From positions 282 through 23,277 of the IMG/VR virus record IMGVR_UViG_3300030389_000357: a stretch of 22,996 nt of DNA. One strand, written 5' to 3'. The notes below the pieces were generated by a model. That model was given only the letters and a program-made list of their open reading frames with translations, searched no databases and was not told where the DNA came from. This DNA comes from a virus. Both the position numbers and the translations under genes were made by a program. Below, in pieces: positions 10,635 to 18,836 of this stretch (the stretch's first letter is position 1; each line of letters opens with the position of its first letter).

Positions 10635-11330
10635 TTATCTCAATTTTTTAAGTTTTGCTATAGGGTTTCTAAAAAAAGGTATAGTTGTAAATTTTGTTCT
10701 GTCCGTTTCTAAATGTTGATGTAAAACTATTTTTGCCTCTGTTAAAGGAATAACGTGTATAAAAGGTGTCCCTGCTTCAAATAAAACACGAAATGGTTCT
10801 TTTCTTAAAATAAAATTAACATTAGTTGAGTAAGTATATTTGAAGTCTACTACACCATTTACTGCTTGCAGTTGAGGGAATCTAGTATTCCAAAAAGTAT
10901 TAGTAAATAACATATTACAAGATTGTTTAGTTTTAATATGCCAAGGACTATCTAACTTGTGCATAGTAAAATACTCTGAGTTCGCTTTCCACTTATTGTC
11001 TGGATCCCAATGAACCAAAGGTTTTTTTGAACCAGCTTTTATATCAAAAAAAACTTCCCCTTCGACTGTTGTATCTATTAAAAAATCTGTCCATAAAGGT
11101 ATAATAAAACCTTGCTTATATAAATCAGTTATTCCCGTGCAATGTTTAAGACTGGTTTTAACATTTGGATAAGAAACAATGTCGTCTAATTGTTTTGAGG
11201 TTGGGATTTTTTTAAACCAAGATGGTATAACATCTTTAGCATATTTAATAGGAAACAACTCAAACAAAGTTTCTTGTGTACAAAAACAATCTATATGTAT
11301 TTCTGGTTTTTTGTTAAATAAACTAATCAC
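10635..11330 (-). CDS. Conserved phage protein of unknown function (231 aa)
   Basis: There is no in-frame ATG near the N-terminus. The GTG at 11330 is chosen because it overlaps the upstream stop (GTGATTAG, 8 bases), as is usual here; a longer reading from TTG at 11381 would overlap the oxygenase gene by 59 bases. From the chosen start the protein reads ISLFNKKPEIHIDCF, followed by SWFKKIPTSKQ and CTGITDLYKQGFIIPLWTDF. The pattern K-K-P near the start, PSWFKK, C-G-ITDL and IPLWTD is shared by a family of about 230-250 residues found in marine phages, possibly the one catalogued as DUF6065 (from memory, not checked). It is rich in Trp, Phe and Tyr with no signal peptide. Its constant association with 2OG oxygenases here suggests a shared accessory role, but no function can be assigned. 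Confidence 0.5.
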   Translation of the reverse strand: MISLFNKKPEIHIDCFCTQETLFELFPIKYAKDVIPSWFKKIPTSKQLDDIVSYPNVKTSLKHCTGITDLYKQGFIIPLWTDFLIDTTVEGEVFFDIKAGSKKPLVHWDPDNKWKANSEYFTMHKLDSPWHIKTKQSCNMLFTNTFWNTRFPQLQAVNGVVDFKYTYSTNVNFILRKEPFRVLFEAGTPFIHVIPLTEAKIVLHQHLETDRTKFTTIPFFRNPIAKLKKLR

Positions 11331-11949
11331 CAGAAACAACAATCTCTTTTGTCTTGTTTCGAGACATTGGTTTAGGTTCAATTATTTTTGGTATTGGATT
11401 TATCATATCATGTTTATATCTATCGTTCACACCATGACCCCAGTAATTTATATTTATGGTTACTCTAAATGGAACATTTGTTGGTGAGGTGCTTGCGTGT
11501 GGTTTAGTGGGATCAAAAAACAACAAACGATTAGCTTTTGATTCTATCTCTGTACCACACTCCATAATTGTCGGAGCATCACAGTCTTGTAAATAAAATA
11601 ATGCTCCGTTATGAGGAAAATGTGCATCTTGGTGCATTGCGTGTTGCTCTACTTTCCCAGACTGACTTTTAAAATACATATTGGCTTTTATTCTATGCAA
11701 TCCCCATATATTCATTTTTGAGGTTAAATTTAAAAATGGTGCTAAATAATCTGTATTCTTCCATTGATCATTGTACCCATCATATGCGTGAAACATTAAA
11801 GTTGCAAAATACATATCATCATTTTTGTGATCGTTATTATTTATTCTACCCGACAATCTCCAAGGGAAGTGTCCATTAGGTCCTAACATATTTGCTAATT
11901 CCCCAAATTCATTTGGAGGTAAAAAATTATCATATACTACATAAGTCAT
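11323..11949 (-). CDS. 2-oxoglutarate/Fe(II)-dependent oxygenase (208 aa)
   Basis: The double-stranded beta-helix signature of 2OG oxygenases is complete: the iron-binding HxD is His106-Gln-Asp108 (in EQHAMHQDAHFPHNGALFYL), the distal iron ligand is His151 (FFDPTKPHAS) and the arginine that anchors the 2-oxoglutarate carboxylate is Arg162 (PFRVTININY). The opening VYDNFLPPNEF is typical of the marine-phage group of these enzymes. A C-terminal tail (about 172-208) extends beyond the core. The enzyme should couple oxidative decarboxylation of 2-oxoglutarate to hydroxylation of a substrate; the substrate is unknown. AAGGAA upstream of the ATG at 11949 is a fair ribosome binding site. It is the third of three consecutive oxygenases. 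Confidence 0.88.
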   Translation of the reverse strand: MTYVVYDNFLPPNEFGELANMLGPNGHFPWRLSGRINNNDHKNDDMYFATLMFHAYDGYNDQWKNTDYLAPFLNLTSKMNIWGLHRIKANMYFKSQSGKVEQHAMHQDAHFPHNGALFYLQDCDAPTIMECGTEIESKANRLLFFDPTKPHASTSPTNVPFRVTININYWGHGVNDRYKHDMINPIPKIIEPKPMSRNKTKEIVVSGD

Positions 11950-11959
11950 ATCTTTTCCT

Positions 11960-12532
11960 TTATTTAAAAAGAGGACCTAGCCACCAACAAACTAGACTAT
12001 ATCTGATTCCTTTAGTAACTGGTGTCACTCCATGTTTAATATAAGATGGAAAGAATATCACTGTGCCTTGTGCAAGTGAGTCTTCTTCTTTAAATTTTTC
12101 TGAATCATCTGGAAACTGAAAACGCCCGCCTTTATAATATTCTGGAGAGGTAAGTTGTAAAGACATTGACAATTTTCTAACAACACCACCTGATGGAACG
12201 TCATCGTATACTCCATCAATATGAGGTTTGTAAAACCCTCGATTTTTTTCATCATATTTTGTTACTTGTAGAGCTTCAGGATTAACTAAATCAAAACCAT
12301 AAAACTGTTGATTTACTTGTCTTACAAGCTCTATTATAGGTTGATAAATTTCAAGATGTTGAACAAAACTATTTATCCAAAAGGTTTCACTTCTTCTAAT
12401 ATTATGATCAACACCACCTTTATCACCAAATCCAATTTGTGATTCTTGAAAATGTGGTTTTGCTAAATCAACAATTGCATTACATATTTCAGGTTTTATA
12501 GCATTTTTTGCTACTATTATGTTTCTTTTCAT
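11960..12532 (-). CDS. Prolyl-4-hydroxylase-like 2OG/Fe(II) oxygenase (190 aa)
   Basis: This is a compact single-domain P4Hc-type enzyme. The HxD iron motif is His104-Ile-Asp106 (YKPHIDGVYDD), the distal ligand is His167 (FFPSYIKHGVTPVTKG) and the 2-oxoglutarate-binding arginine is Arg177 (GIRYSLVCWW). The segment LSMSLQLTSPEYYKGGRF between them is characteristic of the P4H/PiuC-like branch (2OG-FeII_Oxy_3). FFPS...KHGV is a near-invariant turn before the distal histidine. It is transcribed 10 bases ahead of the next oxygenase; GAGG lies nine bases upstream of its ATG. In phages such enzymes are suggested to modify proteins or to act in host metabolism; the substrate here is unknown. Confidence 0.9.
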   Translation of the reverse strand: MKRNIIVAKNAIKPEICNAIVDLAKPHFQESQIGFGDKGGVDHNIRRSETFWINSFVQHLEIYQPIIELVRQVNQQFYGFDLVNPEALQVTKYDEKNRGFYKPHIDGVYDDVPSGGVVRKLSMSLQLTSPEYYKGGRFQFPDDSEKFKEEDSLAQGTVIFFPSYIKHGVTPVTKGIRYSLVCWWLGPLFK

Positions 12533-12546
12533 GGGGAATTACCTCG

Positions 12547-13614
12547 TCAGTCTTTTTTTGCGTACAGTCCTGGTCTTTCATCGTAAGCGTATTCTTTGTT
12601 TTTCCCATGTTTTTCAACGTAATGTAAAAAAACTTGAGAGTGCCAATCGTATTGTAAATCATTTCTCCAATGTTCTTGCTCACAACCTTTGTAAATAATA
12701 CCCTCTCCAGGCATTGTTTTAAAACCTTTTCCATCTACAAAAATCTCCCAAGAGCAAGACTCTTCAGATGCTCCCAGAGTTAATGTTACGCTCACTTCAC
12801 AAGCTGGTCTGTCTTTGTGAGGAGGACAACACTGCCCTTTGTAATATGTTCTCCAAAAAGAGTATGTGGGTATTAATTCTTTTCCGTATGCTTTTTCTAC
12901 TGTTGGTTGAATGTACGAAAGCAGACTTTCCATTGGAATGTCATAAGGCAGTTGTGATGTTCCACCAAAAGGTATGCCTTGATTTTCTGGCACTTTGCCT
13001 ATTAATGGCTCTACTTGTTTTACATGATGCAAAAGATAATTGGTTGTAGAAGGATCTATGAACTTAATAACATCATTAGTTTTGGGTTCTATCATTTTAT
13101 TGTAGTAGTTTTCTCTATCTTCAAATTTAATTTTGTAAAGATGTCTATCATTATAATAACCTAATTTTTTTAAATGAAAAGAAGATTTTTGAAGAGTAGA
13201 TAATCTTTGAATAAACACAGTTCCGTGGTGCTTGAACTCACATCCAGTAATTACACCCTCAGTTTGATACGGATGCGATGTCATAAAATAAATATCTTTA
13301 GTATTCAAAAGACCGTTTGATATAGACTCGTTTAGTTGTTTAAATTTATCACTATATTTTTTTACATTTGAATCAAAATTAAAATCAATAATTATACTTA
13401 CATCTAACTTTTTATTTATTAACTCTTTTGCTTTTTCTAAAAAAATAGAATCGTCATCATCATATTTAAAAAAAACTGGAACTCGTTCTTTGTTCCATTC
13501 CTCTTCTGCATATGGACACTTTGGAATGTTGTTATGTTCTAAATTAGGTTTTGATAAACTTTCGGTAAGTTCTTTAAGTTCATTTAGAACTCTAGCTTCT
13601 AGATTTACGACCAA
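12547..13614 (-). CDS. Two-domain 2OG/Fe(II) oxygenase with unknown N-terminal domain (355 aa)
   Basis: The C-terminal half (about residues 245-335) carries the oxygenase signature: SFWRTYYKG, HxD at His266-Lys-Asp268 (CCPPHKDRPACEVSVTLTL), then MPGEGIIYKGCEQEHWR with the distal ligand at His315. The usual downstream Arg is less obvious; Arg317 two residues after the histidine is a candidate. The N-terminal half (about 25-170) starts with CPYAEEEW, has an alternating beta-alpha pattern (DVSIIIDFNF) and is not recognised. There is no in-frame ATG before residue 111, so the TTG at 13614, which overlaps the upstream TAA by 10 bases, is the probable start; the N-terminal domain would otherwise be lost. 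It is the first gene of the three-oxygenase cassette. Confidence 0.8.
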   Translation of the reverse strand: MVVNLEARVLNELKELTESLSKPNLEHNNIPKCPYAEEEWNKERVPVFFKYDDDDSIFLEKAKELINKKLDVSIIIDFNFDSNVKKYSDKFKQLNESISNGLLNTKDIYFMTSHPYQTEGVITGCEFKHHGTVFIQRLSTLQKSSFHLKKLGYYNDRHLYKIKFEDRENYYNKMIEPKTNDVIKFIDPSTTNYLLHHVKQVEPLIGKVPENQGIPFGGTSQLPYDIPMESLLSYIQPTVEKAYGKELIPTYSFWRTYYKGQCCPPHKDRPACEVSVTLTLGASEESCSWEIFVDGKGFKTMPGEGIIYKGCEQEHWRNDLQYDWHSQVFLHYVEKHGKNKEYAYDERPGLYAKKD

Positions 13615-13997: not shown

Positions 13998-15242
13998 TTA
14001 TGATTGTACTGTTCCGTTTACCGTTCCATTATTTTGAAAGGTTAAAGATATTGGACTCGCTTTTTCAATAGCTAATCCAGCAGCTCCTACACTTCCTGCT
14101 GATCCACCAGCAGAACCATTTGATGAAGAGTTTGTCCCAGCTTGACCAGCTTGACCTCCTGATCCATCTTCAGCAAAGCCGCCACCAGCGCCACCATTAC
14201 CTCCAGCACCACCATTTCCAGCTTGTCCAGTTGATCCAGAAGCACCACTTGCTCCAGAATCTCCTCCTGGTTGATTATTAAAACCTCTACCTAAACCTCC
14301 AGCACCTCCAGCACCTCCTGAGTGACCACTAGCTTGAGTCTGTTGTTGTTGAGGAAAGGTTCTATATATTTGATGAAACCTTTGATAATTAGGTGGGTTC
14401 TGAGAATCAGTATATTGATCTTGATAAGGACCTCTATAATAAGTGTACTGACCTTGAGTTGTTGATGTTGCTTGTGGAATAGGTGAAAAGTTTGTGCTTC
14501 CCCAACGATAATAAGAATATGAATATTGGTTTCCAACATAAACATTTGAAACTAAATAACCTGGAGCTGATCTTTGCCACCTCGGACCTTCTTGACCAGT
14601 TGTCTGTTGTTGTTGATTAAGACCGCCACCTTGACCGCCGCCTCCACCACCAGAGCCACCGCCTCCACCTGCGTGAATACTGCCATTGTTAACAATAGTA
14701 CAATCTGTGGCAACTTTGATAGCATCACCACCTGCGGATCCAGCCGATCCGTCTCCACCTGCACCACTAGATCCAGCCGATCCAGCCGATCCACCTGCAC
14801 CACCAGCGCCCATGATAACACCGTTGTTTGTTATGGTAATTGTTCCAGCACCACCAGCGTCAACTTCTAATGCAAACTCTGCTGTGTTGTTTGTTCCTAA
14901 AGTTATATCAGATGGAATGATAACATTCTTTGGATAGTTTACATCATAGTCATCACCAAATAACGTAGAAACATTTTGATCTGTCGCACTCGTAGCACCT
15001 AGACCAGCTGTAGTATAAGTAAAGGTAAATCCTTTAGCTTGGTCGTAGAAATCACTGGTAGACAAAGCTCCAGATGTAGCAACAGATGCAGCGAGATTAG
15101 TAGCTTGATTATCTCCAGCTTTTTTTAAAATATTAGAGCCACCTCTATAAAGATCGCCTAAACCTATAGAACTAGAACCACCGACAAACTCGGTTCTTAA
15201 CGCAGAAAAAGATAGTGATTGTCCAGAACTTGGTATTGCCAC
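13998..15242 (-). CDS. Glycine-rich receptor-binding adhesin, gp38-like architecture (414 aa)
   Basis: The N-terminal segment (SGQSLSFSALRTEFVGG then IGLGDLYRGG, residues 6-35) is a widespread attachment module of phage fibre proteins. Glycine-rich blocks lie at about 144-173, 190-207 and 308-388, made of GGAGG, GSAGSAG and GGNGGAGGG units, of the kind that form polyglycine-II sandwiches in T-even-like gp38 adhesins. Between the blocks, residues 208-307 are quite different: rich in Gln, Tyr, Arg and Pro (YVGNQYSYSYYRWG). Interleaving of conserved glycine blocks with variable segments is the layout of gp38 receptor-recognition tips. The start is GTG at 15242, with GGAGG seven bases upstream; the nearby ATG at 15246 is in another frame. 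Receptor binding is inferred from architecture. Confidence 0.7.
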   Translation of the reverse strand: MAIPSSGQSLSFSALRTEFVGGSSSIGLGDLYRGGSNILKKAGDNQATNLAASVATSGALSTSDFYDQAKGFTFTYTTAGLGATSATDQNVSTLFGDDYDVNYPKNVIIPSDITLGTNNTAEFALEVDAGGAGTITITNNGVIMGAGGAGGSAGSAGSSGAGGDGSAGSAGGDAIKVATDCTIVNNGSIHAGGGGGSGGGGGGQGGGLNQQQQTTGQEGPRWQRSAPGYLVSNVYVGNQYSYSYYRWGSTNFSPIPQATSTTQGQYTYYRGPYQDQYTDSQNPPNYQRFHQIYRTFPQQQQTQASGHSGGAGGAGGLGRGFNNQPGGDSGASGASGSTGQAGNGGAGGNGGAGGGFAEDGSGGQAGQAGTNSSSNGSAGGSAGSVGAAGLAIEKASPISLTFQNNGTVNGTVQS

Positions 15243-15245
15243 TCA

Positions 15246-16259
15246 TTAGCCTCCGTTGTTAATCTGTTGTTTAAGTTGTGTTACTTCTTGTTTTAATTCC
15301 TTGACTGCTTCAATCAATACAGCCGTCATTTTAGCATAGTCAACTGATTTTGTTCCCATTTCATCTTCAGCTGTTAAAACAACCTCTGGTAAGATAGGTT
15401 CAACCTGTTGTGCTATCACACCTATTTGTGTCTTCGGATCAGTTACATCTTTTCTTTTATAAGTTACACCTTGTAATTGCATAACTTTTTCAAGACCACC
15501 AGTAATAGGTTGTATATCTTCTTTTAATCTTTCATCAGAAAAAGCAGTTACATCATTGTTAAATGTAGCGGCTCCAGCAGCAGACATATCTATGGTCAAA
15601 GCTGTTATCTCACTTGTTGAATCTTGTCCTTTTATAATAAAATCTTTATCATCAACATCCGTAGCTATTACAAAATCACTGGATGAGTTTATAAATTTTG
15701 CGATTGTTGTGCCACCATCTTTGAATATAAGATCTGCACCATCTGCATCAAGCACAATGTCTCCAGCCGAATCAAATGTCATGTCTCCAGAATTAGTTTT
15801 AACTGTGCTAACATTTACAGATCCACCAGATAAATCTAAATCTACAAAAGCATCCACGACAGCAGCACCAGAACCTGCACCATCAAGATAAACAACCTTT
15901 GTATCGCCAGGTCCTATGGTTACATTTGCACCAGAACCTTGTGATATAATTATATTTTGTGACCCACTTGTAGCGTTCTCAATCATGTGAACTCTTTTTA
16001 AAGTATTTGGACCTATGGTTATTGTACATGCAGAATCTAATGTACCAGTATATTTAATATACATGGCTCTGCCCTCATCTGCCGATCCATCTGCTACAGT
16101 CGTAGTATGTGTATCAGCATTTGTGGTTATGGCTTCTGTACCAAAACCTAGTGCTTCACCAATTAATTCAAGATTTGTATTGGTTGAAGTACCCCATGTT
16201 CCTGATTCATCACCAGTTGCTATTTCTTTAAGCCTAAGATTATTAACATATGTTGCCAT
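15246..16259 (-). CDS. Tail fibre protein with C-terminal S74 intramolecular chaperone (337 aa)
   Basis: Residues 238-335 are a peptidase S74 (intramolecular chaperone auto-processing) domain: FSDERLKEDI with the expected catalytic Ser241 and Lys246, then IGVIAQQVEPILPEVV, KSVDYAKMTAVLIEAVKEL and a terminal coiled coil. In this family the domain trimerises the fibre, then cuts itself off at the serine. The N-terminal part (VNNLRLKEIATGDESGTWG, residues 5-23) is a common marine phage fibre opening, and the middle has beta-strand repeats such as DMTFDSAGDIVLDADGADL typical of trimeric fibre shafts. Its ATG at 16259 overlaps the TAA of the upstream gene, with AAGGGT six bases upstream. The cleavage itself is inferred. 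Confidence 0.88.
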   Translation of the reverse strand: MATYVNNLRLKEIATGDESGTWGTSTNTNLELIGEALGFGTEAITTNADTHTTTVADGSADEGRAMYIKYTGTLDSACTITIGPNTLKRVHMIENATSGSQNIIISQGSGANVTIGPGDTKVVYLDGAGSGAAVVDAFVDLDLSGGSVNVSTVKTNSGDMTFDSAGDIVLDADGADLIFKDGGTTIAKFINSSSDFVIATDVDDKDFIIKGQDSTSEITALTIDMSAAGAATFNNDVTAFSDERLKEDIQPITGGLEKVMQLQGVTYKRKDVTDPKTQIGVIAQQVEPILPEVVLTAEDEMGTKSVDYAKMTAVLIEAVKELKQEVTQLKQQINNGG

Positions 16260-16271
16260 TACGCCACCCTT
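16257..16271 (-). promoter_or_regulatory. Ribosome binding site inside the -RVA-stop junction before 15246-16259
   Basis: AAGGGT (16271-16266) stands six bases before the ATG of a TAATG junction and encodes part of Arg-Val-Ala at the end of the cupredoxin-containing protein; third copy of the junction found in the internal-protein genes. Confidence 0.6.
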
Positions 16272-17473
16272 TCAATCCAATTTGCCAGTTGATCTGGTCT
16301 AATAATACCGTAAACTTGTTCTTCACCAGTCGCACCAGTTCCACTAACACCTGTTAAAGATAACACAGATGTACCCGATATTGCAAGTGCTCCGACAGAA
16401 ATACTTAACCCTGCTAAAGTTACTCCAACATCTGCACCTCCTATAACAGTTTCATCACCTAATGCTGTTGTACCTACGTTGCCAGTAGTTGGTGCTCCAG
16501 TCGTAGTCGCTACTCTGAATACTATCGGAGTGTTCGCAGTCCAACCCATCCCTGAGTGGTTTTGACAATAGTAATATAAGGTAGGTGTGTTTTCTGATAT
16601 AACGATTTCCGTATAGGCTCCAGCTTGTCCTGCCGTGCCACTTGTTGTTACTCCTTCCGTAAGTGTATATGCCGTGCCACCACCATGTGTTCCATTTGCA
16701 GTTTCTGAAAATGCTATCGGATGACCAGAGTTACTGCTATCGCTTTGATCAAAACGATAAGTGTTTCCTTCAAAAAGTTCTAGAGTAACATCTGACGTTG
16801 CGGTTGATCCATTTATGGCATATTTATTAGTTGATCCAAAATTGTGATAAGGATGATTTGAAGGATTACCACTTACTACAGTTACAGTAAAAGTTATAGT
16901 TGAATCAGAGTAACCACTTAAAAGCAAAGAGGTTGATGTTCCAGTTAGGCTAAATGTTCCAGTTCCAGTAAGTGTTGAACTACCAATAGAACCAGTCAAA
17001 GCAGGTAGTGTTACAGATACTTTGTTTTGTGGTACAGTGTCTTCATCTCCAACATCACCAGAGGCTTGTACTCCAGTGACAGAGAATGTTACAGAGCTAA
17101 TTATAGTAACACTTTGAACAAGAGTTTGTGCAGATTGTCCAGTTGGAACAATTATTTGTCCAACATCTGCGAATACACCACCGCCCCATACTCCAGAATC
17201 CCAAGCAGAACTACCCCAACCAGATAAAAATCCAGCAGTAGCAGATACACCAGTGACAGAAAAAGTAACTGGTATAATTAAATCTGTTGTAGGATCAAAA
17301 CCTAAAGTTGCAGTAGCAGATACGCCAGTAGGTTCTGCAACATTCTGAATAAAAATTCCTTCGTCACCAAGTGATGTGGTGGCTTCAAAACCAGTGACGC
17401 TAAAACTAACGTCTAGTTGACCACCCCACTTGTTATTACCCCAAGTGCCTTGACCCCAACCGATGTTAGCCAT
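16259..17473 (-). CDS. Beta-repeat virion protein with embedded cupredoxin-like domain (404 aa)
   Basis: The protein has two Trp/Gly patches (IGWGQGTWGNNKWGG at 4-18 and SGWGSSAWDSGVWGGG at 84-99) and at least five short beta repeats of the form VTFSVTGVxAT (about 22-33, 69-80, 128-138, 172-182, 370-380). Residues about 193-322 form a cupredoxin-like domain: TVTVVSGNPSN, then NSGHPIAFSE with His251, and YYYCQNHSGMGW with Cys303, His306 and Met309. His...Cys-x2-His-x2-Met is the ligand set of type-1 copper proteins such as plastocyanin. The C-terminus (about 380-404) ends IRPDQLANWIERVA. It lies among fibre genes and its composition fits a virion surface protein. Copper binding is inferred from ligand spacing only; the beta-sandwich could also be used purely structurally. 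Confidence 0.65.
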   Translation of the reverse strand: MANIGWGQGTWGNNKWGGQLDVSFSVTGFEATTSLGDEGIFIQNVAEPTGVSATATLGFDPTTDLIIPVTFSVTGVSATAGFLSGWGSSAWDSGVWGGGVFADVGQIIVPTGQSAQTLVQSVTIISSVTFSVTGVQASGDVGDEDTVPQNKVSVTLPALTGSIGSSTLTGTGTFSLTGTSTSLLLSGYSDSTITFTVTVVSGNPSNHPYHNFGSTNKYAINGSTATSDVTLELFEGNTYRFDQSDSSNSGHPIAFSETANGTHGGGTAYTLTEGVTTSGTAGQAGAYTEIVISENTPTLYYYCQNHSGMGWTANTPIVFRVATTTGAPTTGNVGTTALGDETVIGGADVGVTLAGLSISVGALAISGTSVLSLTGVSGTGATGEEQVYGIIRPDQLANWIERVA

Positions 17474-18230: not shown

Positions 18231-18836
18231 TTACTCCTTACACATAACATTAAAAGAATATGTAATTCTTATTTTACTAGGTTTTTTCTTACTTAATTTT
18301 ACTCCATGATCTAATCCAGATGGAAATATAATCAAATCACTCTCTTTAATTTGAGGAACAAATTCTTCTTTATATAATAAATCATTTGATGCGTCTAAAT
18401 CTAAATTAGGATTAGCTATCAAAGAACATCTCCATTGAGGTATTGGATTTTTAAAAGATAGTCCACCATGTGTTTCTTCGTCAAACGATACAAAATAAAC
18501 ACCACTGAATAAAGAAGGTAAATGATTGTGAAACTCTTGCCATTGAAATTCTTTATATGCGTTGAACCAACTTTCTATTTTAAGTTGTTTTGCAGAATAA
18601 TTAAAATGTTTTATTATATCTTGTAACGGTTTACTAACCATTTGATTTAAAATGTTTTGTTCTTCTTTACAGAAATCTTGTTGTTTAAAAGATGTCCAAA
18701 CATTACAATTCCAAAAATTAGAATCATACTGACTATCATCAAGATGAGTTATTATTTTATCGCATATACGTTTATTTATTTCTTCTGTGTTACCAACAGA
18801 AATTTTTAGCAACCAAGGTGCAAATATATTTTGCAT
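18231..18836 (-). CDS. 2OG/Fe(II) oxygenase family protein with HxH motif (201 aa)
   Basis: The pattern ESWFNAYKEFQWQEFHNHLP, SGVYFVSFDE, GGLSFKNP and FPSGLDHGVKLSKKKPSKIR is that of the putative 2OG-Fe(II) oxygenase family (2OG-FeII_Oxy_5/TIGR02466). The first metal motif reads His103-Asn-His105 rather than HxD; to my recollection HxH occurs across this family, so it is probably not a lesion. The distal ligand is His177 and the 2-oxoglutarate-binding residue is likely Arg190. The ATG at 18836 overlaps the upstream TAA (TAATG), with AAGGAAG in front, so it is translationally linked to the Rossmann-like gene. It is separate in sequence from the three oxygenases at 11323-13614. The substrate is unknown. 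Confidence 0.78.
   Translation of the reverse strand: MQNIFAPWLLKISVGNTEEINKRICDKIITHLDDSQYDSNFWNCNVWTSFKQQDFCKEEQNILNQMVSKPLQDIIKHFNYSAKQLKIESWFNAYKEFQWQEFHNHLPSLFSGVYFVSFDEETHGGLSFKNPIPQWRCSLIANPNLDLDASNDLLYKEEFVPQIKESDLIIFPSGLDHGVKLSKKKPSKIRITYSFNVMCKE

Follow-up and report, generated by a model that had tools for sequence, protein, structure and literature searches.

The window, as the whole analysed stretch of 22,996 nucleotides is called here, makes up nearly the whole of a virus record of 23,277 bases. On its minus strand an ORF with a GTG start was found to encode a protein of 414 amino acids, in agreement with the position given in an earlier note, which was made from the sequence alone and described the product as a gp38-like adhesin. 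The ORF directly follows the gene of a tail fibre with a C-terminal S74 domain and is itself followed by a gene for a DUF7936 protein, which lies on the same strand in at least 89 relative loci (Table 1).

Table 1. Coordinates in the window of the putative adhesin, its segments and the adjoining genes.
Feature	Position	Strand	Evidence
Tail fibre encoded upstream, 337 aa, with an S74 intramolecular chaperone at its C-terminus	15246..16259	-	PF13884, E 7.5e-19
Presumed mature fibre, residues 1-240, tip ...AAGAATFNNDVTAF then SDERLK	15540..16259	-	Site of cleavage by analogy with S16
S74 chaperone, presumably released by self-cleavage, residues 241-337	15249..15539	-	
Putative gp38-like tail-fibre-tip adhesin, 414 aa, GTG start	13998..15242	-	Structural match; phrog_10745, E 3.7e-28
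Adhesin residues 1-70: N-terminal adaptor module, conserved and putatively docking on the fibre tip	15033..15242	-	Mean entropy 0.72 bits
Adhesin residues 71-145: beta-helix core	14808..15032	-	
Adhesin residues 146-207: glycine block 1 (approximately GRM1-3 of S16 gp38), with beta-helix strands	14622..14807	-	
Adhesin residues 208-307: hypervariable, predicted all-beta insert at the loop-B position	14322..14621	-	
Adhesin residues 308-414: glycine block 2 and last beta-helix strands	14001..14321	-	
Downstream DUF7936 protein, 127 aa	13605..13988	-	

In the window protein, the insert at residues 208-307 contains 8% Gly, 20 Y/F/W/H, 20 Q and 6 R residues. The preceding glycine block has 45% Gly with one aromatic or His residue and one Q, and the following segment has 35% Gly with three aromatic or His residues and six Q, so the sharp difference in composition described in the earlier note is real. 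Trp was present in the insert of all 68 unique complete members of the family and in residues 2-145 of one of these, and 156 of the 169 Trp residues of the segments counted in the unique members lie in the insert. Residues 308-414 of the adhesin and the corresponding parts of its relatives fall into distinct C-terminal types (..GTVQS, ..PTSD, ..AGGTE and ..GAVA).

The remainder of the window carries podovirus-type genes, including those for a DNA ejection protein, a match to an internal virion protein and SU10-type adaptors, together with a stabilisation-protein homologue that shares 40% identity with its counterpart in phage DSL-LC04 and is matched in HTVC027P and CRP-902. No DNA-level match was obtained by megablast of the whole window against phage records. 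The podovirus-type ejection and stabilisation proteins and the lack of such a match agree with the suggestion that the phage is not T-even-like. Judged by its genes, this uncultivated phage is probably short-tailed, and a marine origin is likely from its relatives of the DSL-LC04, HTVC027P and CRP-902 type. Scans of genome contigs for a host, with the family profile and with the stabilisation protein, gave 20 and 28 pattern stretches, respectively, none of which was confirmed as a relative.

Several other minus-strand ORFs of the window were noted. A tail-fibre-like protein at 16259-17473 contains a stretch, GHP...YYYCxNHSGMG, that is conserved across 34 unique relatives and that we take to resemble the copper-ligand pattern of cupredoxins; the ORF had no Pfam match at E <=0.1. 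Among the tail genes, the ORFs at 11960-12532, 12547-13614 and 18231-18836 are of the 2OG-Fe(II) oxygenase kind or are labelled ferrochelatase in PHROGs. The ORF at 11323-11949 (208 aa) matched PHROG 274, ‘DNA endonuclease V’ (8e-37), which suggests a mislabelled family, since the adjacent 2OG-oxygenase ORF at 11960-12532 also matches PHROG 274, weakly.

Among relatives of the upstream fibre the shaft varies, and strong conservation is seen in the residues before the presumed cleavage site (ITALT.DMSAAGAATFNNDVTAF, followed by SD.RLK). The region upstream of the adhesin was surveyed in 101 partly redundant loci with at least 1200 nt of upstream sequence. In 86 of them, the end of an S74-like ORF lies no more than 60 nt from the adhesin start, and in the remaining 15 the fibre lacks S74 and ends TA[FY]G.. 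(13 of 71-83 aa and two of 270 and 346 aa); one locus, L034, has S74 by one count and is unmatched by the motif of a second scan. These 15 loci belong to clade B (L035, L037-L050), and their fibre ends, N[VI]TA[FY]G.., resemble the predicted S74-cleaved tip of clade A. In S16, gp37 also carries S74 and gp38 follows gp37 in the gene order, and gp37 cleavage is described as exposing the gp38 docking site (PMC7917993). Since an S74 fibre adjoins the adhesin as in S16, the pair probably works like the gp37-gp38 tip, with another socket.

Adaptor-type N-termini were also seen on a different glycine-rich domain in Lentibacter phage ICBM3 (L138:2295-3436) and Burkholderia phage JC1 (L142:1453-3190), where the directly preceding gene encodes either a fibre of 68 aa with the end NVTAYGTV or one of the S74 type. 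The adaptor in these two phages is possibly a modular fibre-tip socket. The idea of fibre tip and adaptor as a universal joint fits ICBM3 and JC1 partly and has counterexamples elsewhere; it is not claimed here, because a protein of ~130-145 aa intervenes between fibre and adaptor in Xanthomonas X1 and Rb1 and Stenotrophomonas DLP_6, and the adaptor is embedded in a larger protein in S-SSM7 and, by annotated coordinates, in Sf-FS3.

The fold of the adhesin was modelled with AlphaFold2. With 35 sequences, most of residues 91-210 and 311-414 reached a pLDDT of ~87-97, and much of the insert stayed below 50; the model from 61 sequences had a mean pLDDT of 86.8, with the insert at ~80-90 and forming six strands. 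Residues 1-70 were modelled at low confidence (pLDDT ~48-64, except one block at 88-90). By VIA alignment, the closest chains to the models were S16 gp38 (6f45_D; 217 residues aligned at Z 18.9 and 19.1, rmsd 5.2-5.3) and PP01 gp38 (9v85_A; 193 residues at Z 18.3 and 18.5, rmsd 2.6), with the next-best chains at Z 3.1 and 6.2 in the two model searches. The S16 alignment spans 217 of the 248 gp38 residues. Among predicted viral structures (BFVD), the best match (E 2.1e-27) was a protein of Rhizobium phage RL2RES that has a Gp38 domain, and a search of solved structures by sequence returned chance low-complexity matches only. The adhesin is thus predicted with high confidence to be a beta-helix carrying a polyglycine-II sandwich, and the packed glycine sandwich anticipated for a gp38-like protein is present in the model (Z ~19 to S16 and ~18.5 to PP01).

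The window adhesin had no match in Pfam, and GP38 (PF05268) was matched at E <=0.01 by two of 35 members (best 9.5e-4); the adhesin of RHph_N34 barely clears the curated cut-off of GP38 (25.9 vs 25 bits). Gp38_N (PF21721) was sought in 35 members and found in none, with S16 gp38 as a control at 1.1e-19. The window adhesin matched phrog_10745 over residues 53-412; all 35 members of the first alignment matched this PHROG, and the window adhesin weakly matched a tail fibre family as well. The same PHROG was matched by the RHph_N34 adhesin at E 1.4e-103 and by S16 gp38 weakly, at E 8.8e-5. Direct profile comparison with S16 gp38 was likewise weak (prob 30, E 5.6e-4). Searches of phage records by tblastn with the whole adhesin or its first 146 residues found nothing, and cultured phages were reached by search only via a distant-clade member. 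With its different attachment module, the protein does not count as a T2-type gp38 in the strict sense.

The profile alignment pairs residues 56-198 of the window protein with residues 31-158 of S16 gp38, covering the beta-helix and the glycine runs and ending at GRM3. In S16 and PP01, the residues of loop-B directly follow the GRM3 glycine run. In PP01, loop-B comprises Q161-V170, residues 158-170 of gp38 are reported to be essential for adsorption, and K168 and Y169 are suggested to contribute to LPS sugar recognition (PMC12892980). Based on the model and this alignment, the insert of ~100 residues is predicted to take the place of loop-B of gp38 and to form an all-beta subdomain. Within it, G264 and G271 are nearly invariant, and the motifs GQYTYxRG and YxIYR recur. 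The earlier note had read the insert as a set of receptor-contact loops, which does not match the model: what is predicted is a beta-domain in which the framework is conserved and variability peaks in two parts. When the whole model was searched, the insert fold (residues 211-302) gave only matches of Z 2-3, including one to the lectin LecB (Z 2.5), all of which were read as chance. In the accessible text of the open-licence literature searched, nowhere was a domain-sized insert described at loop-B.

Relatives were gathered from 52 loci by protein search and by a profile search with at least 167 confirmed and 80 kept. Family ORFs were present in at least 125 loci including the window (at least 107 complete and at least 68 unique, with two ORFs lacking the RTEF motif excluded), and these counts are not independent, because many loci are one contig fetched twice or near-identical contigs. 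In an unguided scan of 68 unique members, the window included, the most variable stretch of 100 residues starts at residue 207, with a mean entropy of 2.22 bits; the best such stretch in 2000 column shuffles reached 1.67 bits. The mean was 2.21 bits in the insert against 0.96 bits in the rest of the protein, where residues 1-70 were the most conserved segment (0.72 bits), and the contrast in variability is beyond chance. Inside the insert, the most variable parts are ~274-286 (3.05 bits) and ~220-257 (2.49 bits), and the framework at ~258-273 (1.95 bits) and ~287-307 (2.15 bits) is less variable. Insert length ranges from 69 to 139 aa among unique members.

The same picture was obtained from pairwise identities. 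Among 35 unique proteins (595 pairs), the mean identity was 19.6% in the insert and 76.2, 61.6, 55.9, 59.3 and 44.1% in residues 1-70, 71-145, 146-207, 308-388 and 389-414, respectively. The insert was less identical than the flanks in 590 of the 595 pairs, as expected from the proposal that a hypervariable insert lies between conserved flanks; L043 and L048, for example, share 93.5% of their flanks and 17.2% of the insert. Substitution rates (Nei-Gojobori, protein-guided alignment) were calculated for 71 pairs with a flank pS <=0.40, among which members are shared. Insert dN exceeded flank dN in 65 of 71 pairs and insert dS exceeded flank dS in 51 of 71. The dN/dS ratio was higher in the insert in all 65 pairs with both values defined (medians 0.51 vs 0.11) and above 1 in two of them, the insert values being inflated because codons can misalign in a protein-guided alignment.

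Insert alleles have also been exchanged between backgrounds. L028 and L093 are 92-100% identical in DNA on either side of the insert, except for one step of 77% after it, and 58-73% identical over the insert. The nearest neighbour by flank is also the nearest by insert for 30 of 55 clade A members; the flank of L076 is nearest to that of L128 (insert 23.8%), and its insert is nearest to that of L100 (77.1%). Flank and insert trees reject each other (AU test, 24 chosen of the 55 clade A taxa). The conflict is not specific to the insert: the trees of the N-flank and the C-flank (residues 308-414) also reject each other, so the exchange is not confined to the insert and mosaicism extends over the gene. 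It may be presumed that the exchange of insert alleles is tied to changes of receptor.

A loosely constrained, drifting spacer between glycine blocks that are fixed by packing would also be variable, and the wide range of insert lengths (69-139 residues) and a dN/dS that is mostly below 1 are in keeping with it. This explanation is nevertheless considered unlikely. The insert keeps its framework (G264, G271, GQYTYxRG and YxIYR), is predicted to fold and holds nearly all of the Trp, and drift alone would not give an insert dS that is often above that of the flanks. In addition, the framework is common to the adhesins of rhizobial phages: insert-only profiles matched seven rhizobial inserts at E 1.3e-4 (clade A) and 2.8e-4 (all inserts), with E 0.21 as the best of 30 column shuffles of all inserts. 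Clade B inserts alone had no match among the rhizobial inserts (E 0.42) and matched the clade A inserts at E 3.2e-5.

A structural or decoration protein of the head or tail surface with a polyglycine fold, in place of a receptor-binding tip, is a slightly poorer explanation again. Polyglycine ‘brush’ domains are also described in tail hubs (PMC13243795), and other tail proteins of the window, such as that at 16259-17473, could bind receptors. Against this, the gene immediately follows that of an S74 fibre whose tip, before the presumed cleavage site, is highly conserved, as gp38 follows gp37 in S16, and most of gp38 (217 of 248 residues) is taken in by the structural alignment. Rewriting of the insert by a diversity-generating retroelement, which local hypervariability in an aromatic-rich part of a tail protein might suggest, was rejected as highly improbable, since the variable region targeted by such an element has a constant length and receives directed substitutions only, whereas the inserts differ in length and diverge at synonymous sites too, and the reverse transcriptase family PF00078 was absent from all 16 records searched (23-61 kb, possibly fragments), with three of 14 control genomes positive.

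On the strength of the model, the alignments and the analogy with S16, the ORF very probably encodes a tail-fibre-tip adhesin that works like T2-type gp38 and has a receptor-touching, diversifying insert. The fibre would trimerise with its S74 chaperone, cut itself after ...NNDVTAF as inferred from S16, and so bare its conserved tip, on which the conserved N-terminal module of the adhesin would dock. Docking is proposed by analogy, because this module is poorly modelled and is without Trp prongs. The beta-helix would bear the polyglycine-II sandwich, and the aromatic- and Gln-rich subdomain is predicted to project from the apex between the third glycine run and the one that follows and may contact the host receptor. 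The insert would diversify through relaxed or diversifying selection and through allele exchange between backgrounds. The location of the adhesin at the tip, its docking, its receptor contact and its role in host range are inferred, and the adhesin is a strong candidate for the protein that decides which bacteria the phage binds, because a large, fast-changing domain replaces the short receptor-contact loop of gp38. For a more specific reading the chances appear about even. Here the insert would be a receptor-binding beta-domain in its own right, attached at the loop-B apex of the polyglycine sandwich, and an old module common to uncultivated podovirus-type phages and rhizobial Pootjesviridae. 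It would keep a folded framework with two hypervariable parts and move between phages as an allele cassette that can be swapped while the fibre-tip socket stays constant.

Among host-range determinants, T2-type gp38 is a textbook example. Apart from the window, the predicted receptor-binding core is now seen in at least 124 partly redundant IMG/VR loci of an uncultivated group, and the insert may serve directly as a marker by which host-range alleles are followed in metagenomes. In this group the gp38-like core is joined to a different attachment module, and the variability is concentrated in one foldable domain. The spread of the polyglycine fold among phages has been named as an open question (PMC13243795).

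Two further systems show a partial likeness. The gp24 fibre of myocyanophage Pam3 (PDB 7YPX) is described as having a glycine-rich domain and a variable distal tip (PMC9608196), and is in this respect like the window adhesin; it differs in having a TNF-like middle domain, in being a self-trimeric fibre and in its separate chaperone, and it matched the adhesin model at Z 2.2. Three genes annotated ‘Phage tail fiber adhesin Gp38’ were reported in under-recruiting islands of marine phages by Mizuno 2014, an observation at the level of genes, with no insert domain or loop mapping described in the accessible text (PMC3909814).

Like T2-type gp38 (S16, 6F45; PP01, 9V85), the adhesin is predicted to have a beta-helix that bears a polyglycine-II sandwich; its glycine runs are likewise separated by hypervariable sequence, and its gene directly follows that of an S74-processed fibre. 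However, T2-type gp38 attaches through Trp prongs, whereas the window adhesin has another N-terminal module, without Trp prongs or Gp38_N. The five short loops of gp38 contrast with one domain-sized insert of ~100 aa at loop-B in the window family, the glycine blocks of the window adhesin are longer, and its carrier is a phage with podovirus-type genes and not a T-even phage. The whole architecture is shared with the adhesins of the rhizobial Pootjesviridae (RHph_N34, phiM9 and RL2RES), which have the same adaptor, beta-helix and glycine blocks and an insert of 90-98 aa at the same place with a related framework; in RHph_N34 and phiM9 the gene also directly follows an S74 fibre. The family profile matched the RHph_N34 protein (EVC06_011, annotated ‘putative tail fiber adhesin protein’; phiM9_135 is the phiM9 counterpart) over 357 columns with 34% identity (E 1.1e-30). 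These phages differ in their large genomes (~143-159 kb) and rhizobial hosts and, being cultured, they offer a tractable system for the function of the loop-B domain.
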